Below are positions 2,977 through 42,646 of a stretch of 64,000 nucleotides of DNA, piece after piece. This DNA is from Paludibacteraceae bacterium (GTDB lineage Bacteria > Bacteroidota > Bacteroidia > Bacteroidales > Paludibacteraceae), in NCBI GenBank assembly GCA_024692565.1, contig JAILMN010000010.1, forward strand, positions 1 to 64,000, read 5' to 3'. The translations under genes were made by a program, and so were the position numbers. Position 1 is the stretch's first letter; each line of letters begins with the position of its first letter. Under the pieces are notes generated by a model. It saw nothing but the letters and a program-made list of their open reading frames with translations. It ran no database searches and was not told the origin of the DNA.

Positions 2977-3408
2977 TTATTCCTTTTTGTTGAAGAGTAT
3001 AAATTTCCGCGCAAAGAAATTCCAGAAGAAGACGATTGCTGTGGAAATAAGTTTGGAAATCATGTAGTGCAGATGAATCAAATCTGTGCCGATATACATG
3101 ATTAGTTCGTTAAGTCCTAATCCGATTACTCCGATAAAGGCAAAGAACAAAAATTCCTGCCAAATTTGCATTTTGCCGCTGTGTTGAAAAACCCAACTGA
3201 TGCTGATTAAGTAATTGGTAATCAGGCCTAAAAGAAAAGCAACTGCGGCAGACCACAGGTACGGAACGCCGGCATAATGGGTTAAACCGAAGAGTGTTCC
3301 ATAGTCCACTAAAAAGGCTATTCCGCCTACAAATCCATAACGAAACAGCTGCAAAAACCAGTTGTTAGTGGGCGCTACAAAGAGCGTATTTAACCATTTT
3401 TTTATCAT
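2977..3408 (-). CDS. GtrA-like membrane protein
   Basis: A 143-aa protein with four predicted membrane helices and the GtrA-type pattern of RYGFVGGIAFLVDYGTLF near the N-terminus and ARKFILF at the C-terminus. GtrA proteins are thought to flip polyprenyl-phosphate-linked sugars across the inner membrane or to assist membrane glycosyltransferases. It overlaps the GT-C gene upstream by 4 bp and is the last gene of the minus-strand run. That position supports a joint role with the neighbouring glycosyltransferase. The sugar is unknown. Confidence 0.85.
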   Translation of the reverse strand: MIKKWLNTLFVAPTNNWFLQLFRYGFVGGIAFLVDYGTLFGLTHYAGVPYLWSAAVAFLLGLITNYLISISWVFQHSGKMQIWQEFLFFAFIGVIGLGLNELIMYIGTDLIHLHYMISKLISTAIVFFWNFFARKFILFNKKE

Positions 3409-4982
3409 TCAGCCAATTCTATTTCTGCGCGTTCTCTATCAAAAACGAGCATATATTGATGTGTATTATCATAGTGCAAAACCGCTTGCGGGAAATACTG
3501 TGGATACTGCTGAATAGCCGGATAGAGATAGAGATACGTAGAGCTGTAACCCAGATTATCCAACAGCACAAAGTCCACTTTTTTCTCCACCAAATCGAGG
3601 ATCAGTTCTTTAGCGTCTTTGGTATATTTGTAGTTAACGCCCGGCAGTTGGCTATTTAACCAGAACATCTGCGGTTTGCGGCTACAAACGACACTTCCTT
3701 TCGGTGCGCTTTTCTTCATCTGCTTACCCATACTGAAAAATTGGGTATATTGGATGGGATATTTCTGTTTGGAAAGCTCAATTTCGCTCTTCAAACCCTC
3801 TTTGGACGGGATGAAAAGAAGGCATAAGATGAGCGCACAGCCGGTGAAAAGATACTTGCTGTGTTTAATCAGTATCCATTCTGCAATTTGCCAAATTCCG
3901 CAGAATAAACCTGCAGCCAGAAGCGGTAAAATGGACGTGATATAGCGGTTTCCGCTCGGGGTAGAGAAGATGGAAATAAGACCTAATGTAACAGCCAAAT
4001 AGCCGATCAATCCCCAGCGTAGTTTACCCATCGACCAATATCCGATCAGTATCACCGCCAGCACTAAAGCGCCGATGATATAGATGGAAGCCGAGAACGT
4101 CGGTTCATCGCAATTGACATTCAAATAGGGGAAGATGGTATTGGGTATTGCATTGAAAATCAGCATCTTCAACGTTTCAAAGAATCGATGAATTATTTCC
4201 GGTAAAGTCAAAGTACCGGCGTCCGGTTGCCACGGATTGCTGAGCATAATCGAATCCAAATAACGGTTTCCGTTTAGACCTAACACTTTATTGCGGATCA
4301 TATACGGAAGGCATCCGGCGATAAAGCCTACGACAGTTGTTCCCAAACCAACCCAACGACGTTGCGCCAAGAGTAACAGCCCTACTCCGGCAACCAGAGC
4401 CAGGCCTTGCGTGCGGATGTGATAATTCCAAACGAGCGCGACAATCATTGCCCAGAGCCACGGACTTTTGATATCTGCCCACCATCTTTCGTCTTTGCTT
4501 TCCGCCGACAGATAGCGCGCTAAGGCATAGAAAACGAACGCGGACATGAAGAAGAATGAGGCTTCGCTCATCATCATCGTGGAGAAATGCCACAGGCGCG
4601 GACTGAACAAACCAGCCGCAGCAGCTACCAAACTGATGTCCCACCGCAAGCCTAATTGCAGTAACGTAAAGAAAATCAATAAGATACCGCCTAATACAAA
4701 AATCTCATTCAGCCATTTTTGTGCTTTGACATTGTCCGTCACCATTCGTATAGGCGTCATCAACAAAGGATAGCCGGGAGGAAAATTGGTTGTGGGTTGA
4801 ACGTCAGGCGTCGATAAATCGCAGTAACCATGACCCGTAGCCAATGAGCTGGCATAGATATAATAGCAGAAATTATCGCCGTTCAAGTCCGGTTTCGGAT
4901 TGAATGTTTTGGTGGCCAGGATGCCCCAAACGATAGCTAATACGGCGCAACAAACGCCGATAATGGTTTTATTTGCTTTCAT
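3405..4982 (-). CDS. Multi-membrane-span glycosyltransferase, GT-C/ArnT-like
   Basis: A polytopic inner-membrane protein with about 11-12 hydrophobic segments and a short soluble C-terminal part. The N-terminal loop has the acidic [19 protein letters not shown] pattern of GT-C enzymes (GT39/GT83-like), which take sugars from polyprenyl-phosphate donors on the periplasmic side. The ORF track begins at 5006. I prefer the ATG at 4982 (MKANKTII), which has GGAG a few bases upstream and still overlaps the preceding gene by 14 bp, giving 525 aa. It sits between a FAD oxidoreductase and a GtrA protein. Acceptor and sugar cannot be read from the sequence. Confidence 0.75.
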
Positions 4983-31762: not shown

Positions 31763-33106
31763 ATGAGTCAACCGACGGAATTAGGCATAGAGCCAATACA
31801 TAAACTCCTTTGGAAGTATGCGTTGCCTGCTATCATTGCTATGACGGCTACGTCGTTGTATAACATCGTGGATAGTATCTATATCGGTCACGGATGCGGT
31901 GCGTTGGCGTTAGGCGCATTGACTGTGGCGAAACCATTCATGGATATCTGTGCAGCATTCGGTAGTCTCGTTGGTGTGGGGGCTTCTTCGCTATTAGCAA
32001 TCTATCTTGGTGAGAAAGACTATGACCGAGCCAACCGCGTTTTGGGTAATGTGATCGTGATGAACATCATCCTTTCCGCCGTGGTGATGGTGGTGGGCTT
32101 GGTATGGCTTAATCCCATTCTCATGGCGTTCGGCGCCAGTGAAGATACGATCGGCTATGCGCATCAATACATGGAGATTATCCTGTACGGCAATATCCTG
32201 ACGCATATTTATTTTGGTTTGAATGCGATGTTGCGTTCAGCGGGACATCCGCGTTTCTCAATGACCGCCACCATCGTCGCGGTGGTCATCAATATTATCC
32301 TGGATCCGATCTTTATCTTCGGTCTCGACATGGGTGTCCGTGGAGCCGCTTTGGCAACGGTCATCAGTCAGGCAATCGCGGTCACATGGCAGGTAACAAA
32401 ATTCTTTGATAAGAACGAATTAGTCCGCTTTCATCGGGGGATTTGGCGACTAAATAAGCATATTACTTTTCGTGCATTGGCAATCGGAATGTCCCCGTTC
32501 CTGTATAATATCGCGCATTGTTTTGTGGTGGTCATCATCAATAATCAACTGAAGACGTTCGGTGGCGATATGGCGATTGCGTCCTATGGGGTAATCAACC
32601 GTCTGACCTTCGTCTTTGCGATGATGGTGATGGGTCTCAACCAGGGTATGCAACCTATCGCGGGGTATAACTACGGAGCGAAGCACTACGACCGTATGCT
32701 CAAATCCTTCTACCTCACCTGCCTGTATGCTACGGGCGTGATGGGCTGCGTGTTTATCTTGGGAGAGTGGTTCCCGCGTATGGTCACGCAGATGTTCACG
32801 CATGATCCCTTGCTCATCGACCTCACTATCAAACCGATGCGCATCATCTGTTCGTCCATGCTCATCATCGGCTTCCAGATGGTGACGGGTAATCTCTTTA
32901 CCTCTATCGGTAAGGCAGGCAAAGCCATATTCCTCAGCCTGACGCGTCAGGTGCTCTATCTCATACCGCTGGCGTTGTGGATGCCGCTGCTCTTTGCCGA
33001 GCCCCTTGACGGTGTATGGTGGTCCATCCCCGTCAGCGACACCTTCTCTGCCATCACCGCCGTCATCGTCCTACTCGCCTCTCGCAAAAAACTACATATG
33101 GAATAA
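31763..33106 (+). CDS. MATE-family multidrug/toxin exporter
   Basis: A 447-aa inner-membrane protein with about twelve hydrophobic helices in two MATE halves. It includes LWKYALPAIIAMTATSLYNIVDSIYIG near the start and GLNQGMQPIAGYNYGAKHYDR in the second half, both typical of NorM/DinF-like exporters driven by Na+ or H+. The substrate is unknown. It starts 6 bp after mrp. Confidence 0.92.
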   Translation: MSQPTELGIEPIHKLLWKYALPAIIAMTATSLYNIVDSIYIGHGCGALALGALTVAKPFMDICAAFGSLVGVGASSLLAIYLGEKDYDRANRVLGNVIVMNIILSAVVMVVGLVWLNPILMAFGASEDTIGYAHQYMEIILYGNILTHIYFGLNAMLRSAGHPRFSMTATIVAVVINIILDPIFIFGLDMGVRGAALATVISQAIAVTWQVTKFFDKNELVRFHRGIWRLNKHITFRALAIGMSPFLYNIAHCFVVVIINNQLKTFGGDMAIASYGVINRLTFVFAMMVMGLNQGMQPIAGYNYGAKHYDRMLKSFYLTCLYATGVMGCVFILGEWFPRMVTQMFTHDPLLIDLTIKPMRIICSSMLIIGFQMVTGNLFTSIGKAGKAIFLSLTRQVLYLIPLALWMPLLFAEPLDGVWWSIPVSDTFSAITAVIVLLASRKKLHME

Positions 33107-33117
33107 ATCATTTGCTT

Positions 33118-36100
33118 ATGGCTAATTATCGCGTTATAAAGAATACCGTGATGCTGTGCGCAACTTTGGGTTTCTCCACTTTTGTCTCGGCAGCACCTTG
33201 GACAGGAGCCAAGACGGAACCTGTCAACGACGGCACGACCTACACGATCGCTACGCCGGAAGAGTTGGCGTGGATAGCGGAGGCGAGTCAAACCAATACG
33301 TTCGCAGGCAAAATAATCCGTCTGACGGACGATCTCGATTTGGGTGGTACGCACCCCACACCTCCCAGTTGGATACCTATCGGCAGTGAAGCGGCGCCGT
33401 TCCAAGGAGAGCTGGACGGCAATATCCATGTGGTGTATAATCTCTATATGCTTAGTTCCGCCTTTCCCAAGGGCGCAGGCCTCATCGCGGAGACAGGAGA
33501 GGCTGCCGTGGTGCATCATCTAGGTATCGCGCAAGGCCAGATTATGACCGATGGTTCCAATAATGTCGGCTCGTTCGTGGGCGTGAACCGCGGAACGATT
33601 CACCATTGTTTTAACATGCTGCAGATCATCGCCCATAATGGCGATAACATCGGCGGTCTGGTTGGAACAAACTACGGCGCAATTAACTATTCCTATAATG
33701 CCGGCATTATCACGGACGCCAATAATCATGTAGGAGGATTAGTCGGTTTCAATAGTGTCTCTTCCGTATTAGATAATTGCTATAACATGGGTTACTGCAA
33801 AGGAACCGACCACGTAGGAGCGCTATTTGGCAAGAACGAAGCTCCTGAGACACAATTGATTAAAGTGGTTTTTGACCAGCAGTTGACGCGCATGTATGCA
33901 ACGGGTTATGGGGCCAATGATCCTATCCTTACGGACAATACGAAATATGCGATTGAAAAGTCCAAAAACTTTTGGCAGTACGGTCCGTATTATCAAAATC
34001 CAGAGGTTGAATGGTGTAGCGACGTGCATGCACAGTTGGTTTGTTTCAAAAATCACCCTGCGTCTTGGCTGTCCGGCTTTGCCGTCAGTCTGGATGCCGA
34101 CAATCGCCCTATCGAGCGTGCGGAAGGAGTAGGTGCACCAAAGGAAGGAAATGTCCCGCGGCAGACTATCATATTAGATAGGTTGTATAATAATCTCGGA
34201 GAAGGACAATGGTATTCACCCAGCCCGGATGTAATCTATATCCCCAGCCCCACTTCTTCTGTCGCCCAAGTATTCCGTCCATGCGGTAACCAGGAGGTTA
34301 TCCTCACGCAGACTTATGATAAGTTCGTCAAGCAAGTATATACGATTGTGAAAGGATACGATGTGTTTGATGCCGGAGTCGTGTCCGGAGAAACATGGGC
34401 TTGTTGGAACCAAGAGGATGTCAAGTTCATGGTGCAGAATAACGGTGGCAAAGAGGCATCCGGAGGCAAGGATGATGAACAGAAGAACTCAACGTATAGT
34501 TACCAATATATGATTATCCGCGATACGGTCATCAGTCGCTATCCGGAGCATTATGAACCGATAGACACGTTCTATATGCCGCAAGAGATATATAAAGACT
34601 GGTGCCTACCGACGGATGTCCCGGGTGATTATGCATTCAGACGTTATGTGAAGGATTGCAAGTGTAAAACAGAGTGGACCTTATCACAAGGATTGTATGG
34701 CGCGCCTGTGGGAAGGTTGTTCCTCCATGTGCGCGAGAAATTCGACCCGGGTGAGTTGGTCGAGAAACCGGATACCTTGTACGGCATCTTACCCATTACC
34801 TTGACCATTGAGAGTGCACGGGATGCGTCCGGCGGTGGCGGTCATTTTAACTATACATGGGCGATGACGCGCAGCGCATGGGATCCGGCAACGCAGGACT
34901 GGCTCGCTCCTACCGAAGATGACATCCGCGATCCGCTCTATATGGGCGGCAGTCCGGTCAATACACCCTCTTTCGATTATAACTTCACCAAACCCGGCAA
35001 GTATTCCTTCACGCGTAAGGTCAGCGAAACGGCCTGCGAAGCCTTACCCGTCGAGTCCTTCCGTCCGTATGTGGTCTATGTGTATGAGACGCTTGACCCG
35101 GGACGTATCGATTTGTTCGAGCGCCAGTTATGTACCTCCCTCTGTACCGATACCATCAATGAGATAGACTCCGTCAGTGGCGGTAACGGCATCTATCTCT
35201 ATCGTTGGCTCTGTAATGGCGAACCTATCCCCGGTGCCGATACCACTGTCTTGGATCTGGCGGATATCGCACTAACCCACGGACAGACCTATGTCTTCCA
35301 TCGCCAAGTGAAAGATAACACCGGCCTGATGGATTGGCAGACATCCGCGGGCGAAGTGCACGTGCGTGTTTATAAGGACTACGACGCCGGTGCAATCACG
35401 CCGATTGATGACCAACTATGTACGGACAACAGCACCATCGATGACGTGCCGATGACCATCCTTCAGCAGCAGGCAGCTACAGGCGAACCGGGTAGCGAGT
35501 ATGTCTATTGCTGGTTGCTCTATCGCGGCGGTGCGGACACCTTACTCCTGGATACTATCCATCATAATGCCCCTACGCTTGATACTACGATCTCCCTCAG
35601 TTCATACGGACTCTCCGTACCCGTAACGCTCTATGTCCAACGGGCCGTACTGAACCTGCTGTGTGAGTCGGAGCGGAAAATATCTGCGAACTCCGCCATG
35701 TGGCGATTCGGTCGTTCGGAAAAACGAACGGAGTACGTCAAGGCCTGCACGCTGCCCTATGTCTATACCTATACTTTTGCGGACGGTAGCACCAAGCAAT
35801 ATCGCTTCACGCAAGAGAATGAGACCACGGTGATGCAGGATCAGACCACGGAGGGATGCTCGCTTGATGTCACGCTGCAATGTCTCTTGACCTCCACTCC
35901 GGAAGTGGAAGTGGAACCCGTTCTCTCGGTTTGCGAGACAGCGCAGATCATGAATATCTCCTATACGGTCGTTAACGGTGCGCCGGATCATTTTGACCTC
36001 ACCTTCTCGGAGAGCGCCAAGGAGATAGGCTTCCGCGATTCGCTCAACGCACCGATGCCCGTATCGCAAATCATCGAGATCCCCGTTCCGACTCCGCTGC

Positions 36101-36558
36101 CCTTGGGCAAACATTCGATGACAATCTCTTTCTTTGCAGAGACAGCCAGCTCCGATGACTGCAAACGCAGCGCACCGACTATCCTGCCCTTCTCCATCGA
36201 CTTGGATGGCTTTGTGCATCGCAAAGAGAACGAGGTTGTCTTCGTGGATAATAGCGGTAAGCATAACGACAAGGGTCTCACCTTTGTGTCCTATCAGTGG
36301 TATCGCAACAACGAACCGATCGAAGACGCCACGGGGCAGTTCTACTATGAGTACAACGGCCTGAACGGATTCTACCAGGTGGTGATGATCGGCGCGGACG
36401 GAACGGAGTACCGCAGCTGTGTCTATGAGTACCGACCGATAACGCCGGTCAACGAGATCGAAGACGGCTCTCGCGGAAAGAAAATTCTTCGTGACGGACG
36501 ACTACTGCTCATCCTCAATGAGAAAACCTATAACATGCTTGGCCAGGAAGAGAAATAA
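33118..36558 (+). CDS. Large exported surface protein with GLUG-like repeats and a T9SS-like tail
   Basis: From the ATG at 33118 the protein is 1146 aa; the longer track ORF reads into MATE. A signal peptide (ending FSTFVSAAPW) is followed by about three GLUG-like repeats (NIGGLVGTNYG, HVGGLVGFNS, HVGALFGKN, residues about 140-240). A long beta-rich, cysteine-containing region of Ig/PKD-like character then follows with recurrent VYDAG/YDAGAI segments. The end, KKILRDGRLLLILNEKTYN, resembles C-terminal tails of secreted Bacteroidales proteins and the tail of the 48.1-kb gene. Probably an adhesin or surface layer protein. The next gene, an OmpA protein, abuts it. Confidence 0.75.
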   Translation: MANYRVIKNTVMLCATLGFSTFVSAAPWTGAKTEPVNDGTTYTIATPEELAWIAEASQTNTFAGKIIRLTDDLDLGGTHPTPPSWIPIGSEAAPFQGELDGNIHVVYNLYMLSSAFPKGAGLIAETGEAAVVHHLGIAQGQIMTDGSNNVGSFVGVNRGTIHHCFNMLQIIAHNGDNIGGLVGTNYGAINYSYNAGIITDANNHVGGLVGFNSVSSVLDNCYNMGYCKGTDHVGALFGKNEAPETQLIKVVFDQQLTRMYATGYGANDPILTDNTKYAIEKSKNFWQYGPYYQNPEVEWCSDVHAQLVCFKNHPASWLSGFAVSLDADNRPIERAEGVGAPKEGNVPRQTIILDRLYNNLGEGQWYSPSPDVIYIPSPTSSVAQVFRPCGNQEVILTQTYDKFVKQVYTIVKGYDVFDAGVVSGETWACWNQEDVKFMVQNNGGKEASGGKDDEQKNSTYSYQYMIIRDTVISRYPEHYEPIDTFYMPQEIYKDWCLPTDVPGDYAFRRYVKDCKCKTEWTLSQGLYGAPVGRLFLHVREKFDPGELVEKPDTLYGILPITLTIESARDASGGGGHFNYTWAMTRSAWDPATQDWLAPTEDDIRDPLYMGGSPVNTPSFDYNFTKPGKYSFTRKVSETACEALPVESFRPYVVYVYETLDPGRIDLFERQLCTSLCTDTINEIDSVSGGNGIYLYRWLCNGEPIPGADTTVLDLADIALTHGQTYVFHRQVKDNTGLMDWQTSAGEVHVRVYKDYDAGAITPIDDQLCTDNSTIDDVPMTILQQQAATGEPGSEYVYCWLLYRGGADTLLLDTIHHNAPTLDTTISLSSYGLSVPVTLYVQRAVLNLLCESERKISANSAMWRFGRSEKRTEYVKACTLPYVYTYTFADGSTKQYRFTQENETTVMQDQTTEGCSLDVTLQCLLTSTPEVEVEPVLSVCETAQIMNISYTVVNGAPDHFDLTFSESAKEIGFRDSLNAPMPVSQIIEIPVPTPLPLGKHSMTISFFAETASSDDCKRSAPTILPFSIDLDGFVHRKENEVVFVDNSGKHNDKGLTFVSYQWYRNNEPIEDATGQFYYEYNGLNGFYQVVMIGADGTEYRSCVYEYRPITPVNEIEDGSRGKKILRDGRLLLILNEKTYNMLGQEEK

Positions 36559-38027
36559 TGAAAAAAAACTTGTGGATCATAGCGTTGCTGTCGGTAGGTC
36601 TCGGAGCTTTTGCTGCCCCTAAGCAAAAAGCCAAACAAGAGAAACCGATCAAGCATTACCTCGATATCTACGCCCTTGGCGGAGTAGGTTCTTTAGGCTA
36701 TCAACTGCAAGGCGGAGCCGTCGATCTCAGTGCCGCGTTCGGCGCCGGATTGGGCTATACGTATTTCTTCCATCCGTCCGTAGGTCTGCAGCTCGGTTTG
36801 TCCTTCTCCCGCGTGTCATCCTCGTCGCGTCTGACCGAGCGGATGGAGTGGCGCACATGGCAGGACGGCTCGCCGCTCACCGATTATACGGGAGAGCCGT
36901 ATATCCATTATACCGCTTTCTCGGATTTCCGAGAGCGGCAGCAGGCGTATCTCATCGAAGTGCCTCTCGGCCTGCGCTTCCGTTATTTCAAGAGTAGCGG
37001 CAGCAAAGCTGGCCTGCATGCCGCGCTCGGTGCCAAACTGGCCATACCCGTCTTGGCGAATTATACGCGCGTGTCGGGAGATATCACCCATACCGGCTGG
37101 TACGAACAGTGGCAGCTGACCTTGCATGATCTGCCCGGACGATTCGAGACGGAGCGTTTCGATACCAAGCAGGAAGAGTCCATCACCAATCGCCTCAATC
37201 TGATCAATGCGGTGGCGTATGCCGAACTGGGACTCGCGGTCCGCATCAGCCCGCATTACGAGCTCTATATAGCCGCCTACGGCCAGTATCTCATCAATGA
37301 TTTCTCCGCTACAAAAATGGATGAACGCGTGCCGCTTGGATTCCGAAATACACATAATAACTATGCCTTCATGAATGAGTACCGCGGACTCTTCGGAACG
37401 GATAAAGTGGGCGCACTCCATCCTTGGATGGCGGGACTTAAGATCGGCATCTCCATCTGGCCGGGGAAGACGGAGAAAGAGAAGAAAAATGAACTTAAAA
37501 AACTGCTCAAGGAGTTCCCCGATGAGAAAAAAGTGGTTACCGTCCATGATACCGTCTATATCCATGATACGGTTTGTCCGAATGAACTCCGGCCTGTCGC
37601 CACTGTAGCCAAATCTCCGGCAACCAAAGCGCCGCAGAAGATAGACAATACGCCGCTGCCGCATGAGCGTCAACTGGATTCCTTGCTCGCTGAGGCGGTT
37701 ATCTGGTTCCATTTTGATGACGATGTACCTATCCTCGAGCCCGCCTACGTCCTGGACTCTGTAGTGGCGATGATGAAGCGTTATCCGGATCTGAAGATCC
37801 ATGTGTACGGTCATGCGTGCCGGTTGGGAACGGACGGCTATAACCAGCGCCTGGCACTCAAACGTGCCCGTGCCGTGGCAGCTGTTCTCATCGATAAAGG
37901 AGTCGAACCCGAACGGATGTTAGTCTGGTCCTTCGGCGAAGAAAAACCCTACCGCTATAACACCGAGAAACAACTCTCCAAGGACCGCCGCGTGGAAATC
38001 ATCCCCGCCCGCTTCGCCACACAGTAA
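36558..38027 (+). CDS. OmpA-family outer-membrane protein
   Basis: A 489-aa protein with signal peptide (ending GAFAAPKQ), an N-terminal beta-barrel of about 300 residues (LDIYALGGVGSLGYQL, AAFGAGLGYTYFF, HPWMAGLKIGISIW), a charged linker and a C-terminal OmpA peptidoglycan-binding domain (IHVYGHACRLGTDGYNQRLALKRARAV, DRRVEIIP). The start overlaps the stop of the surface protein by one base, so the two are probably made together. It likely ties the outer membrane to the wall and may anchor its neighbour. Confidence 0.86.
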   Translation: MKKNLWIIALLSVGLGAFAAPKQKAKQEKPIKHYLDIYALGGVGSLGYQLQGGAVDLSAAFGAGLGYTYFFHPSVGLQLGLSFSRVSSSSRLTERMEWRTWQDGSPLTDYTGEPYIHYTAFSDFRERQQAYLIEVPLGLRFRYFKSSGSKAGLHAALGAKLAIPVLANYTRVSGDITHTGWYEQWQLTLHDLPGRFETERFDTKQEESITNRLNLINAVAYAELGLAVRISPHYELYIAAYGQYLINDFSATKMDERVPLGFRNTHNNYAFMNEYRGLFGTDKVGALHPWMAGLKIGISIWPGKTEKEKKNELKKLLKEFPDEKKVVTVHDTVYIHDTVCPNELRPVATVAKSPATKAPQKIDNTPLPHERQLDSLLAEAVIWFHFDDDVPILEPAYVLDSVVAMMKRYPDLKIHVYGHACRLGTDGYNQRLALKRARAVAAVLIDKGVEPERMLVWSFGEEKPYRYNTEKQLSKDRRVEIIPARFATQ

Positions 38028-38124: not shown

Positions 38125-38712
38125 CTAATCAAATACTTCCATGAGGATGTCGAGCGATTTGGGGTTTTGCCAGGTCTCGACATGTTCCTCGAAATAGTCA
38201 CACAGCGCGCGGAGAGCCTGTTGCCGTTCCTTGCGCGTGGTAGGGTGAGGATTGAAGGAGTGAGTGTTTTGTGAATTAGGGTTTAGGGGGATAGCGAAAC
38301 CGAGTTTGGCGGCTAAATCCACGAGGAACAGCAGGTGAAAGTTCTGTGGCTCCGTGCAGCGGTCGAGTTGCTCTATTGCCTGCTCCAGATAGTCATAGAG
38401 CGGTTCATCCGTCATCGGATGGCGCAGCACATGGTAGAGCACTTCGCTGATGAAGAGTGCGATCGTGCGTTTATACGGATCTTGGACGATGGTCTGCGGC
38501 ACATAACTGAGTTGCGCCGTGCGTACCGAGCGTTCGTCCGTAGTGAGTTGGACGATGGAGAGCGGCGAGTATTTGCCGGAGGTGTTTTTGCGTCCGAGGC
38601 CGTACACCATATAATTAACGCGCCCGCCCGCGCGAGTGTACGCGTGTAGGACGTGTGCCTTGTCGGAGTGCGGCTGCAGCGACAGCACTATCGCTTCAGT
38701 CGTGCTTAACAT
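38125..38712 (-). CDS. recO: DNA repair protein RecO
   Basis: RecO loads RecA on SSB-coated DNA with RecR. The N-terminal OB domain is clear (TEAIVLSLQPHSDKAHVLHAYTRAGGRVNYMVYGLG), followed by a helical domain (FISEVLYHVLRHPMTDEPLYDYL). At 195 aa it is short for RecO (about 240): the C-terminal part is abbreviated, no zinc-binding cysteines are present, and a low-complexity NPNSQNTHSFNPHPTT segment precedes the end. It overlaps the phosphoesterase by 17 bp. The DUF3127 gene two genes upstream may supply a functional partner. Confidence 0.88.
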   Translation of the reverse strand: MLSTTEAIVLSLQPHSDKAHVLHAYTRAGGRVNYMVYGLGRKNTSGKYSPLSIVQLTTDERSVRTAQLSYVPQTIVQDPYKRTIALFISEVLYHVLRHPMTDEPLYDYLEQAIEQLDRCTEPQNFHLLFLVDLAAKLGFAIPLNPNSQNTHSFNPHPTTRKERQQALRALCDYFEEHVETWQNPKSLDILMEVFD

Positions 38713-39607
38713 AAAGGGAATCGATGGCTACACCATCGTTGCGGCGAAACACCTTAAAGGATAGGCCTGCCTCATCTGCCGTCAAGACCCCATAGACGAA
38801 GTCTTGTGAGATGACATCCGCTTGCAAGGACTTCCGCAGCGGTTTGACTTTGCCGGCTGTATTAAGCATCACGAACGAACCTTTGCGCACGTAGTTATGG
38901 TCGTGTCCGCAAAGCACGAGGTCGGTCTGGCTCAGCGCATAACGGAATGTTGTATACACGCCGGCGTTGAAGCGTCCTTTAGCAGCAGAGAGAACAGGGT
39001 GGTGCATCATGACGACGATATATTTGCCTTCCGCACCATACATTGCTTTCCGTAGCCACGTGAGCAGTCGCGTCATCTCAACGATGCGGTCCATGGGGTT
39101 GGTATCCAGAACGATGAGACGCATGAACGGAAAATCGACGTAGTAATTGGCGCCTTTGATACCCTCCACCGAAGGCGCATAGAAGGTCTTCTGCCATGCT
39201 TCGGACAGTTCTTTCGGAAAACCTTTGTTATACTCGTGATTACCCGGGCAAGCGATGACGGGTTTTCCATTGAGCGCGCTATGAGACCACTCGCGCAGCA
39301 GTTGCTGGCGATAGTATTCCTGTCCGCGCTCCATCCAATCGCCCGTTTGCAGCACCACATCAGCTTGCGGCACGCGTGCAGCAAGTGTGTCATAGTCATC
39401 GCGCGTGAGGTTGCTATGTATATCGCCCATAACGAGGAAAGTGAGTCCTTCTTCGTCAGTCGGACTTGTCAGCACCGAGTCGATGACATCGCCAGTCCAG
39501 ACGGGTTCATCGGGCATCCCGAACCAAGCCTGCCAGCGGACGGCACACACGATGGCGGCCGCCGCTAACAAGACAACAGGTATTGTTATGTTAACCCACT
39601 TACGCAT
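38696..39607 (-). CDS. Calcineurin-like metallophosphoesterase
   Basis: A 303-aa protein with an N-terminal membrane anchor or signal (ITIPVVLLAAAAIVCAV) and all metallophosphoesterase motifs in order: VMGDIHSN, LQTGDWMERG, CPGNHEYN, MMHHPVLS and CGHDHNY. It probably acts outside the cytoplasmic membrane on a phosphoester. The substrate is unknown. It overlaps recO by 17 bp and the DUF3127 gene by 1 bp. Confidence 0.88.
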   Translation of the reverse strand: MRKWVNITIPVVLLAAAAIVCAVRWQAWFGMPDEPVWTGDVIDSVLTSPTDEEGLTFLVMGDIHSNLTRDDYDTLAARVPQADVVLQTGDWMERGQEYYRQQLLREWSHSALNGKPVIACPGNHEYNKGFPKELSEAWQKTFYAPSVEGIKGANYYVDFPFMRLIVLDTNPMDRIVEMTRLLTWLRKAMYGAEGKYIVVMMHHPVLSAAKGRFNAGVYTTFRYALSQTDLVLCGHDHNYVRKGSFVMLNTAGKVKPLRKSLQADVISQDFVYGVLTADEAGLSFKVFRRNDGVAIDSLYVKHD

Positions 39608-40032
39608 TAGAACGGCAGGTCACTTGTGCCTTCGCCTGCAGAAGCGTCAAACGGATCAACGTTAGGAGCCGGAGCCTCAGCCGGTGCAGCTGCAGGAGCC
39701 GCCGGTGCCGCAGGAGCAGCTACAGGTGCTGCAGCAGAAGGAACAGCCGCAGCCTGGGTTGTGTCACCCTGCTGGATCTTCCATGCGCGGATAGAGGTGT
39801 ACCAACGGCCGTTGAACTCACGGCTCTCGATATCGAAGCTAACCGTCACTAATTGATCTACATCGCACGGATTCTGTTTGATACGGTCCTCGCCGAATAC
39901 CTCGAAATGCACCTTACGGGGATATTGATCAAGTGTCTCCAATACATACGGCTGCACGCGCCAAGGGTTGCCGTTACGACCGACACCTTCCTGTGCCGGC
40001 AGTACTTGTATAATCTTACCTACTACTTCCAT
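39607..40032 (-). CDS. DUF3127 protein with SSB-like C-terminal tip
   Basis: A 141-aa protein. Residues about 1-90 form a DUF3127 domain of OB-like look (RKVHFEVFGED, VSFDIESREFNGRWYTSIRAWKI). A long Ala/Pro linker follows, and the chain ends EGTSDLPF. That plan (OB fold, flexible Ala/Pro linker, acidic tip ending LPF) is the plan of single-stranded DNA-binding protein, whose tip (DDDIPF in E. coli) docks RecO and other repair proteins. recO is in the same run. DNA binding is an inference and has not been shown. Confidence 0.8.
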   Translation of the reverse strand: MEVVGKIIQVLPAQEGVGRNGNPWRVQPYVLETLDQYPRKVHFEVFGEDRIKQNPCDVDQLVTVSFDIESREFNGRWYTSIRAWKIQQGDTTQAAAVPSAAAPVAAPAAPAAPAAAPAEAPAPNVDPFDASAGEGTSDLPF

Positions 40033-40034
40033 AA

Positions 40035-41285
40035 TTATTCACCTTTAATTGCTGCTACACCCGGGAGAACTTTGCCCTCGATTGCCTCGAGCAATGCACC
40101 ACCACCGGTGGAGATATACGATACTTTGTCTGCCAGACCAAATTTGTTAACGCATGCTACAGAGTCACCACCACCGATGAGCGAGAAAGCGCCATTAGCC
40201 GTTGCCTCTGCAATAGCCTCACCGATTGCACGGCTACCGTCACAGAAGTTATCGAACTCGAACACACCTGCAGGACCGTTCCAGAGTATTGTCTTCGCGC
40301 CCTTGATTGCGTTGCGGAAGTTCTCTTGTGCCTTCGGACCGGCATCCAGACCTTCCCAACCCTCAGGAATAGCATTCGACGGGAATACTTTCTGGTTAGC
40401 ATCGTTGCTGAAGCTGTCTGCGCAGATAGCATCCGGAGCGAGCACGAGCTCTACGCCGTTTTTCTTAGCCAACTCCTCAACGCCCAGCGCTACGTCCAGT
40501 TTGTCGAGCTCTACGATAGAACCGCCGATCTCACCGCCGTGCGCTTTAGCAAACGTATAGGTCATACCGCCGCAGAGAATCAGTTTGTCCACCTTACCTA
40601 ACAAGTTCTCAATAATACCGATCTTCGAACTTACTTTCGAACCACCCATGATAGCTACGAACGGACGTTTGATGTCGCCGAGCACAGCGTTCACAGCAGC
40701 AACCTCTTTCTCCATCAGGAAACCGAGCATCTTGCTATTTGCATCGAAATAGTCAGCGATGACAGCTGTCGAAGCATGTTTGCGGTGAGCGGTACCGAAA
40801 GCATCCATCACATAGCAGTCAGCGTAGCTTGCCAAAACCTTAGCGAACTCTTTCTGACGAGCTTTCATCTCTTTCTTAGCCGCCTCATAAGCCGGATCTT
40901 CTTTCTCAATACCTACCGGTTTACCTTCCTCCTCCGGATAGAAACGCAGATTCTCGAGCAACAGAACCTCACCCGGTTTGAGCGCAGCAGCTTTGTCTTG
41001 CGCTTTTGCGCAGTCCTCTGAGAACTGAACCGGACGACCAAGCGCTTTGCTTACTGCGTCCACAATCTGGCTGAGGCTGAACTTAGCCTGCACTTTACCT
41101 TTCGGCTTACCCATGTGGCTCATGATGATGAGCGCACCACCTTCGTCCAGAATGTGCTTCAGCGTAGGAAGCGCACCGCGGATACGGGTGTCATCTGTGA
41201 TCTTACCATTCTCGTCCAGGGGCACATTGAAGTCCACACGGACAATCGCCTTCTTACCGGCAAATTTGAAATCTTTGATAGTCAT
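40035..41285 (-). CDS. pgk: Phosphoglycerate kinase
   Basis: The glycolytic enzyme producing ATP and 3-phosphoglycerate. Full length at 416 aa, with [18 protein letters not shown], the substrate-binding arginine region [31 protein letters not shown] and the nucleotide-binding [11 protein letters not shown]. The start at 41285 ([12 protein letters not shown]) is the conserved one; the track adds 12 unrelated residues. It follows a DUF6242 gene by 29 bp and precedes DUF3127 by 2 bp. Confidence 0.97.
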
Positions 41286-41314
41286 AATGTTAAATATTTT
41301 AGTTGTTTTGTTGT

Positions 41315-42646
41315 TTACCAATCGATACTATTCAGATGACCGCGATAGACATCGCTATAGGTGGTCGTTCTGTCTTGACCTCCGAAGAGGTATATATAAC
41401 TGTCGCGTACGATAGCCGTCTGTTTCTGCCGCGCCTGATAGACTGCCGGCAACTGGTTCTTGGTTGTGTCCGCGGCATTCCATGTGAGTCCTTCGTCCTC
41501 GGAAATCAATATATCCCGTCCGAAATACTGCATCTTATCGTCCACGCCGCCGAAGAGCAACAGCTGGTCATTGTAACTGATGACGGAGATGCCGGTGAGG
41601 CTTGTGAACTGCGGTCTGTCAATCGAGAACTCCTGCAGGCGGTACCCGCCGTTCTCTTGCGTATGACGCGAATACTCTAAGTTCCACCGAGTGTTGAGAC
41701 TGCGACCGTTCTCAGCAAAACCACCGATGATCATCGCGCGGTCGCGTAAGCTGGCGCTATAGAAAGTGACGGTACCGAAGTCGCTGATCGGGAACTCTCC
41801 GTCAGGCTTGATGCCGGTCATCTGCAACGCACTGCCGTCAAACATCGCCAACTCATAGTCATCTTCATCGCCCGTGAGTGCCCATACGCGCTCGTTCCAA
41901 TAAAGTAACATCGTGCGCACGGTAGCGCTCACGCTGTGCGCCGTCCATGTGATAGCGTCCGTACTGGTGTACACGGCGTTGTCCTGACCATAGAACAAGG
42001 TGTCACCGCTACTGATGATCTGACGCACTTTGGTTCCTGCCGGCAGTCCTGCAGGAGCACCTAAGTCAATCCAAGTGCTGCCGTCCTCCGAACCCCATGC
42101 ATGCAACTCAAAACCGTTCGAAGCAATCATCACAAACGCATCGTCCAGCTCCACTACGCGTTGCTCGCTGTCGTCTGTTGCATAGATACCTGCGCATAAC
42201 TGCTCCCATGAGTACAAATCCGGATCCACCTGGTGTACCGTCGGGCAGATCTCATACACTTTGGTCGTTGTACGGTCGGACGAACGGATGGTGAGATAAA
42301 TCGGCTTCTTGGTGAAGTCGAGCGTATCGTAACCTGTCAGACTGACGATGGTGTCCGGGAACGTGAGGAATGCCGCACCGGGAGTCGCGGCAAACGAAAA
42401 ACGCGGTACTACACGCTTCAGACTCGTGCCGTACATGATAGAGTCTTGATTCCAAACAAGACCGGTGTCCAACCGTTCCTCAACAGTGAATACGGCTTTC
42501 GCCAAACCCGGCATACTGTCGTTCTTGGCAAACGCAAAACCGGTCAATTGGGCCACGGAAGAAGTGGCCTTTTTCGTCTCTGCTTTCTCACAACCGATCA
42601 AAAGAAACGGTATAAAACAGATAAATATGTAGAAAAATTTGCGCAT
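41315..42646 (-). CDS. DUF6242-like kelch/beta-propeller lipoprotein
   Basis: A 443-aa predicted lipoprotein (signal ending LLIGC). An N-terminal domain resembling DUF6242 ([42 protein letters not shown]) is followed by repeated beta-propeller-like blades with Trp/Tyr and Gly-Gly ([19 protein letters not shown]). Such proteins are common on Bacteroidales surfaces, and their role is unknown. Its start is only 53 bp from the divergent fau start, and a palindrome overlaps both promoter regions. Confidence 0.72.

Follow-up and report, generated by a model that had tools for sequence, protein, structure and literature searches.

The DUF3127 gene and its neighbors

The sequence analyzed here is a stretch of 64,000 nucleotides from a Paludibacteraceae draft genome (GenBank assembly GCA_024692565.1, contig JAILMN010000010.1, positions 1 to 64,000), which we refer to as the window. 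The draft genome measures 1.54 Mb and is 77% complete; the records closest to the window are Paludibacteraceae/Bacteroidales MAGs, many of ruminant origin. On the minus strand of the window, the gene for a 141-amino acid DUF3127 protein (39607..40032) is followed by that for a calcineurin-like phosphoesterase of 303 amino acids (38696..39607; PF00149, E 2e-18) and by recO, which encodes a protein of 195 amino acids (38125..38712). The stop codon of the DUF3127 gene overlaps the start codon of the phosphoesterase gene in the sequence TAATG, and the 3' end of the phosphoesterase gene overlaps recO; thus, the genes of this run are packed closely. Only the phosphoesterase gene separates DUF3127 from recO, which is the second gene downstream. 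The upstream neighbor of DUF3127, also on the minus strand, is pgk (40035..41321), which recurs at every one of the 52 closest-group loci (L115-L166) and at one of 28 others. We regard this neighbor, which is kept within the genus, as context outside the proposed function. Adjoining the recO run on the opposite strand is a pair of genes (33016-38027, plus strand) that encodes a 1180-amino acid protein without any Pfam match and, directly after it, a 489-amino acid protein of outer-membrane type with an OmpA domain (PF00691).

DUF3127 is predicted to be built like SSB

The DUF3127 product lies well over the curated Pfam threshold for its family (PF11325, residues 2-86; 103.2 bits against a cut-off of 27, E 9e-30), and DUF3127 is the only Pfam family above cut-off on the protein. 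It is also a member of PHROG 4932, "single strand DNA binding protein", with a match that spans residues 1-141, the C-terminal end included (E 8e-18). Pfam assigns no function to the family, NCBIfam lacks a model of it, and a sequence search of the PDB returned no solved relative. A limited literature search gave no description of the host gene; the one paper in it that mentions DUF3127 deals with the SSB of a Pantoea phage (PMC8004638).

For residues 1-90 (39763..40032, minus strand), an AF2 model made with 38 homologs predicts, with good confidence (block pLDDT 81-91), a barrel of strands that includes a single short helix; a disordered tail follows. The predicted strands cover residues 2-10, 14-17, 23-33, 40-46, 61-73, and 76-88, and the helix residues 48-53. 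When the model was compared with the PDB using Foldseek, the best matches were the mitochondrial SSB Rim1, PriB, an archaeal RPA OB domain, and bacterial SSB (E 3.5e-4 to 9e-4). These are ssDNA-binding OB folds, and the OB-like domain that had been proposed from the sequence alone is thus upheld by the model. Residues 91-137 (39622..39762, minus strand) form an Ala/Pro-rich linker that is predicted to be disordered (pLDDT mostly below 50) and is unalignable between homologs. The product ends GEGTSDLPF, in agreement with the Ala/Pro linker and SDLPF end described in the sequence-only reading, and its last four residues, D-L-P-F (138-141; 39610..39621, minus strand), constitute a putative docking tip of SSB type.

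Like bacterial SSB (PF00436, e.g., the E. coli protein), DUF3127 combines an OB domain, a disordered linker, and an acidic-hydrophobic tip that ends in Pro-Phe (PF) at the C-terminus. Unlike bacterial SSB, it is not recognized by PF00436, which gave no match to the product in a Pfam search even at E 1, and it has a conserved hairpin of its own, SFDIESREFNGRWYTSIRAW. Profile comparison of the DUF3127 OB domain with PF00436 gave a weak result (E 0.02, probability 2%); therefore, the relation to SSB proper rests on the fold. An SSB profile does match some divergent DUF3127 proteins, with E values of 2e-5 to 6e-4 in a very small search space. Conversely, in several genomes without DUF3127, a DUF3127 profile retrieves the SSB genes, in part via the common tip. 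As modeled, the fold and plan of DUF3127 are SSB-like, and common descent of the two families is likely.

PriB, like DUF3127, is a small single OB fold close to SSB, but it has no SSB-type tail (PMC8509808). As PriB structures rank with the best fold matches, DUF3127 could, instead of being a general hub that binds ssDNA, act in replication restart in the manner of PriB and dock PriA by its tip. In favor of this alternative, an engineered fusion of PriB to an SSB tail stimulates PriA and exceeds PriB in ssDNA binding (PMC8509808). Against it, Rim1, RPA, and SSB match the DUF3127 model about equally well, so the fold does not discriminate a PriB-like role. We consider such a role quite improbable.

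The C-terminal tip is conserved throughout the family

PF is the C-terminal end of 191 of the 196 distinct cellular DUF3127 homologs that we fetched, and of 48 of the 67 viral ones. The five cellular exceptions comprise three tailless paralogs of 95-100 amino acids, the protein of genome G204 (DLPFF), and that of locus L172 (KLPWEQ). Among the 193 homologs longer than 110 amino acids, the entropies of the last four positions are 0.05, 0.09, 0.38, and 0.48 bit; from position -6 backwards they are ca. 2.5-3.5 bits. Moreover, the DUF3127 gene is the sole match to D-[LIMF]-P-F-stop in the window's 1.54-Mb genome and also in the genome of G014, which is 98% complete. The near-invariance of the last four positions beside an unalignable linker, together with the single match in the window's own genome, argues that the tip is not due to chance. 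Thus, conservation of the LPF end among homologs, which the sequence-only reading had named as a point to check, was found. The other D[LIMF]PF-stop matches that we read in genomes of the window's genus and of genus g52 were short or unrelated-looking frames and were rejected.

The gene is widely distributed within its class. Among 109 Bacteroidia genomes (108 that are at least 95% complete, plus the window's own), 102 encode DUF3127, and all but three of these have exactly one copy; it is single copy in the window's genome. A control set of 14 well-known genomes has it in Bacteroides ihuae only, which sets it apart from bacterial SSB, with which it coexists. DUF3127 is also common in phages of Bacteroidota. 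In two phage records the gene lies near primase/helicase and NinG/Rap endonuclease genes, in one of them together with an exonuclease gene, and the products end in DDLPF or SDLPF; these members of PHROG 4932 carry the DLPF end and occur in replication/recombination modules. The annotation of such phage proteins as "single strand DNA binding protein" was made by similarity, and the SSB label for the phage members is already known, not new.

RecO is complete, and its linkage to DUF3127 is local

RecO of the window is a complete protein, compact but ordinary. Its N-terminal OB domain and C-terminal helical domain are both over the Pfam cut-offs (PF02565, E 7e-12; PF11967, E 5e-7), with TIGR00613 below threshold (33 against a cut-off of 48.7 bits). 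The AF2 model (pLDDT 90) shows an OB domain and five helices; its best PDB match is 3q8d, E. coli RecO with the SSB C-terminus (E 2e-10), and 1w3s and 7ymo are matched as well. The modeled fold is compatible with docking of an SSB-type tip. Close relatives within the genus are mostly 186-219 amino acids long and vary in the loop that connects helices three and four. With a single cysteine, the protein is a RecO without the four-cysteine zinc site; the zinc-binding cysteines are found only in some RecO proteins and are not a defining trait. Since E. coli RecO binds the SSB tail yet no zinc, whereas Deinococcus RecO binds zinc but not SSB (PMC9456098), the missing cysteines say little. The sequence-only reading had described recO correctly, as lying in the same run two genes on and encoding 195 amino acids without zinc cysteines, but there is nothing unusual in a short, zinc-less RecO, as E. 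coli RecO, which the model fits best, binds the SSB tail without zinc.

The same reading had suggested that DUF3127 and RecO could form a dedicated SSB-like repair unit, in which the tip would mainly recruit RecO. The two genes are indeed on the same strand and joined by overlaps via the phosphoesterase gene; recO is the second gene downstream of DUF3127, in the same order, at the 20 nearest loci (L115-L134), and the RecO model matches the E. coli protein solved with an SSB tail. However, elsewhere in the genus recO lies on the opposite strand, at a greater distance, or was not detected in the surroundings of DUF3127, and the tip is equally conserved there. At 28 loci of other groups, searched with a genus-built model that could miss a divergent RecO, recO was not found near DUF3127; the immediate neighbors read in these groups were mnmA, rsfS, prmA, a fucosidase gene, and other unrelated genes. 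The window's genus is thus the only one in which recO was found nearby, and the linkage is local, whereas DUF3127 is near-universal in Bacteroidia. In addition, binding of RecO to SSB tails is not universal (PMC9456098). On these neighbor counts we reject the dedicated unit as a general arrangement and consider it very improbable. RecO would instead be one plausible client of DUF3127 among several.

Canonical SSB has repeatedly lost its tip in genomes with DUF3127

Unexpectedly, within the window's genus (g1; Paludibacteraceae MAGs), none of 33 canonical SSBs ends in PF, a count that includes the odd, divergent SSB of G018, which ends DDLP. Every main DUF3127 copy read from genomes of this genus ends DLPF. 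The SSBs terminate in another residue plus Phe in 22 cases and in FR or FRN in eight, so the tip may be altered rather than dead. The 22 Phe ends, often preceded by acidic or polar residues, would fit a scenario in which the SSB tip changed form, to hydrophobic-Phe without Pro, along with its partners; SSB would then still be the docking hub and DUF3127 an auxiliary SSB. Against this, the genus has ends as varied as DIF, FIF, GLFRN, and EEVN, unlike a new conserved motif, other tip-lost lineages have no Phe end at all, and loss of the Pro alone, as in the Pro-to-Ser allele ssb-113, weakens partner binding in E. coli (PMC10164576). A change of form of this kind is unlikely.

SSB ends were also read from one genome per genus in the family and from a class-wide sample. 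No PF00436 copy that was read has the tip in the f1 genera g33, g34, g39, and g40 and in parts of g28 and g32, nor in families f13 and f22 or in genomes G254, G275, G312, G342, G359, G283, G349, and G323. Each genome with a tip-lost SSB has DUF3127, which ends D-x-P-F wherever its end was read (with an extra F in G204). Conversely, the SSB tip is intact in all 18 lineages without DUF3127 whose SSB was readable. Thus, the tip is lost in 15 of 79 lineages with DUF3127 versus 0 of 18 without it (one-sided Fisher p 0.035, on hand-made lineage lists), an association that is supportive, but with its modest p not overwhelming. These calls cover the copies that were read, which in multi-copy genomes are not all, and many of the genomes are MAGs. 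Contrasts within groups agree: G276 and G343 versus G313 in family f51, G349 versus G320 in f59, and G204 versus G067 in genus g32. Mapped onto a PriA tree, the tip-lost state requires eight changes, at least five of which are forced by well supported branches, showing that the losses were repeated rather than a single event. The columns read for a putative tip pocket of PriA vary both in genomes with an intact SSB tip and in those that lost it, and we place no weight on them.

In E. coli, removing the final Phe of SSB, or its final eight residues, is lethal (PMC10164576). Lethality of tip loss there, combined with repeated loss only alongside a second tip-bearing protein here, is the pattern that redundancy predicts. 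If DUF3127 were a regulator or decoy, with a tip that competes for partners and titrates them off SSB, the same tip would likewise be borne on a separate protein; however, this would leave unexplained both the loss of the SSB tip solely in DUF3127-bearing genomes and the presence of DUF3127 in phage replication modules, and we regard it as extremely improbable.

Several apparent cases were set aside. A PF00436 search of the window's own 77%-complete genome gave no match, but SSB is present in most relatives, so missing sequence is a simple reason and we rejected a loss of SSB. G052 was dropped from the tip-lost set, as its SSB frame crosses a masked stretch and a repeat, with DLPF-stop just downstream, and G289 and G288 were dropped, as another SSB copy in each carries LPF. 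In genus g52 (family f1; G088, G115, and G135), neither DUF3127 nor a housekeeping SSB was detected in genomes two of which are 94-99% complete; the only SSB match, in G088, was not accepted as the housekeeping gene, its neighborhood being unrelated and mobile-looking. This genus, also represented by locus L251, is an exception that neither supports nor refutes the association of DUF3127 with SSB tip loss.

A candidate second SSB hub in Bacteroidia

Taken with its predicted plan and conserved tip, the pattern of SSB tip loss makes this ordinary-looking DUF gene a strong candidate to encode a second SSB hub in Bacteroidia. DUF3127 is probably a second tip-bearing protein of ssDNA-binding type in this class, able to take over docking from canonical SSB. 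Its OB domain would bind ssDNA, as the fold and phage context suggest, the disordered linker would reach out, and the DLPF tip, given its identity to that of SSB, would dock the same kind of partner enzymes. Normally, the two proteins would work side by side; as DUF3127 offers an equivalent tip, canonical SSB could dispense with its own, a loss seen in the window's genus and in several more lineages. In such lineages both proteins may coat ssDNA, with partners recruited mainly via DUF3127, which may have become the landing platform for DNA-repair enzymes where ordinary SSB lost its tip. We see an even chance that the essential partner-docking role of SSB has in fact passed to the DUF3127 OB family in the window's genus and several Bacteroidia lineages, leaving SSB and docking platform split between two proteins.

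Like SsbB of Bacillus and Streptococcus, DUF3127 would be an additional SSB beside the main one. SsbB belongs to the canonical SSB family; DUF3127, by contrast, bears a tip, forms an OB family of its own, and is near-universal in its class. On a limited literature search, no described case is known to us in which the docking role has left the SSB family. Expression of SsbB is confined to competence (PMC3128108).

In bacterial DNA replication and repair, the SSB tip is treated as a general and essential docking hub. If an uncharacterized protein, near-universal in Bacteroidia, does provide a second hub, then part of the system has been missing from readings of SSB biology in this dominant gut group, and work on SSB docking in Bacteroidia must count two platforms. 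It would also explain the loss of the SSB tip and give a DUF protein a testable function.

Tailless and divergent copies

Not all DUF3127 proteins carry the linker and tip. At the viral loci L319-L344, an 86-residue form stops right after the OB domain (..WKI). Tailless second copies of 95-100 amino acids are found at L060 (G011; 3215-3502) and L061 (G019; 701-1003), each with a normal gene elsewhere in the genome. At L269 (G077, minus strand), two DUF3127 genes are in tandem (1480-1767 and 1800-2261), one full length and ending SDLPF, the other tailless and OB-only; a PF00436 SSB was not found in this genome, which is 88% complete. In the small genomes of family f64 (G290, G324, and G352), SSB and DUF3127 are both very divergent or undetected. 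The gene at L356 (1444-1896; G204) encodes the product whose DLPFF end runs one residue past the usual tip, in a genome with a tipless SSB, and the protein that ends KLPWEQ is encoded by a second DUF3127 gene at L172 (5001-5402), in the same assembly as L119.
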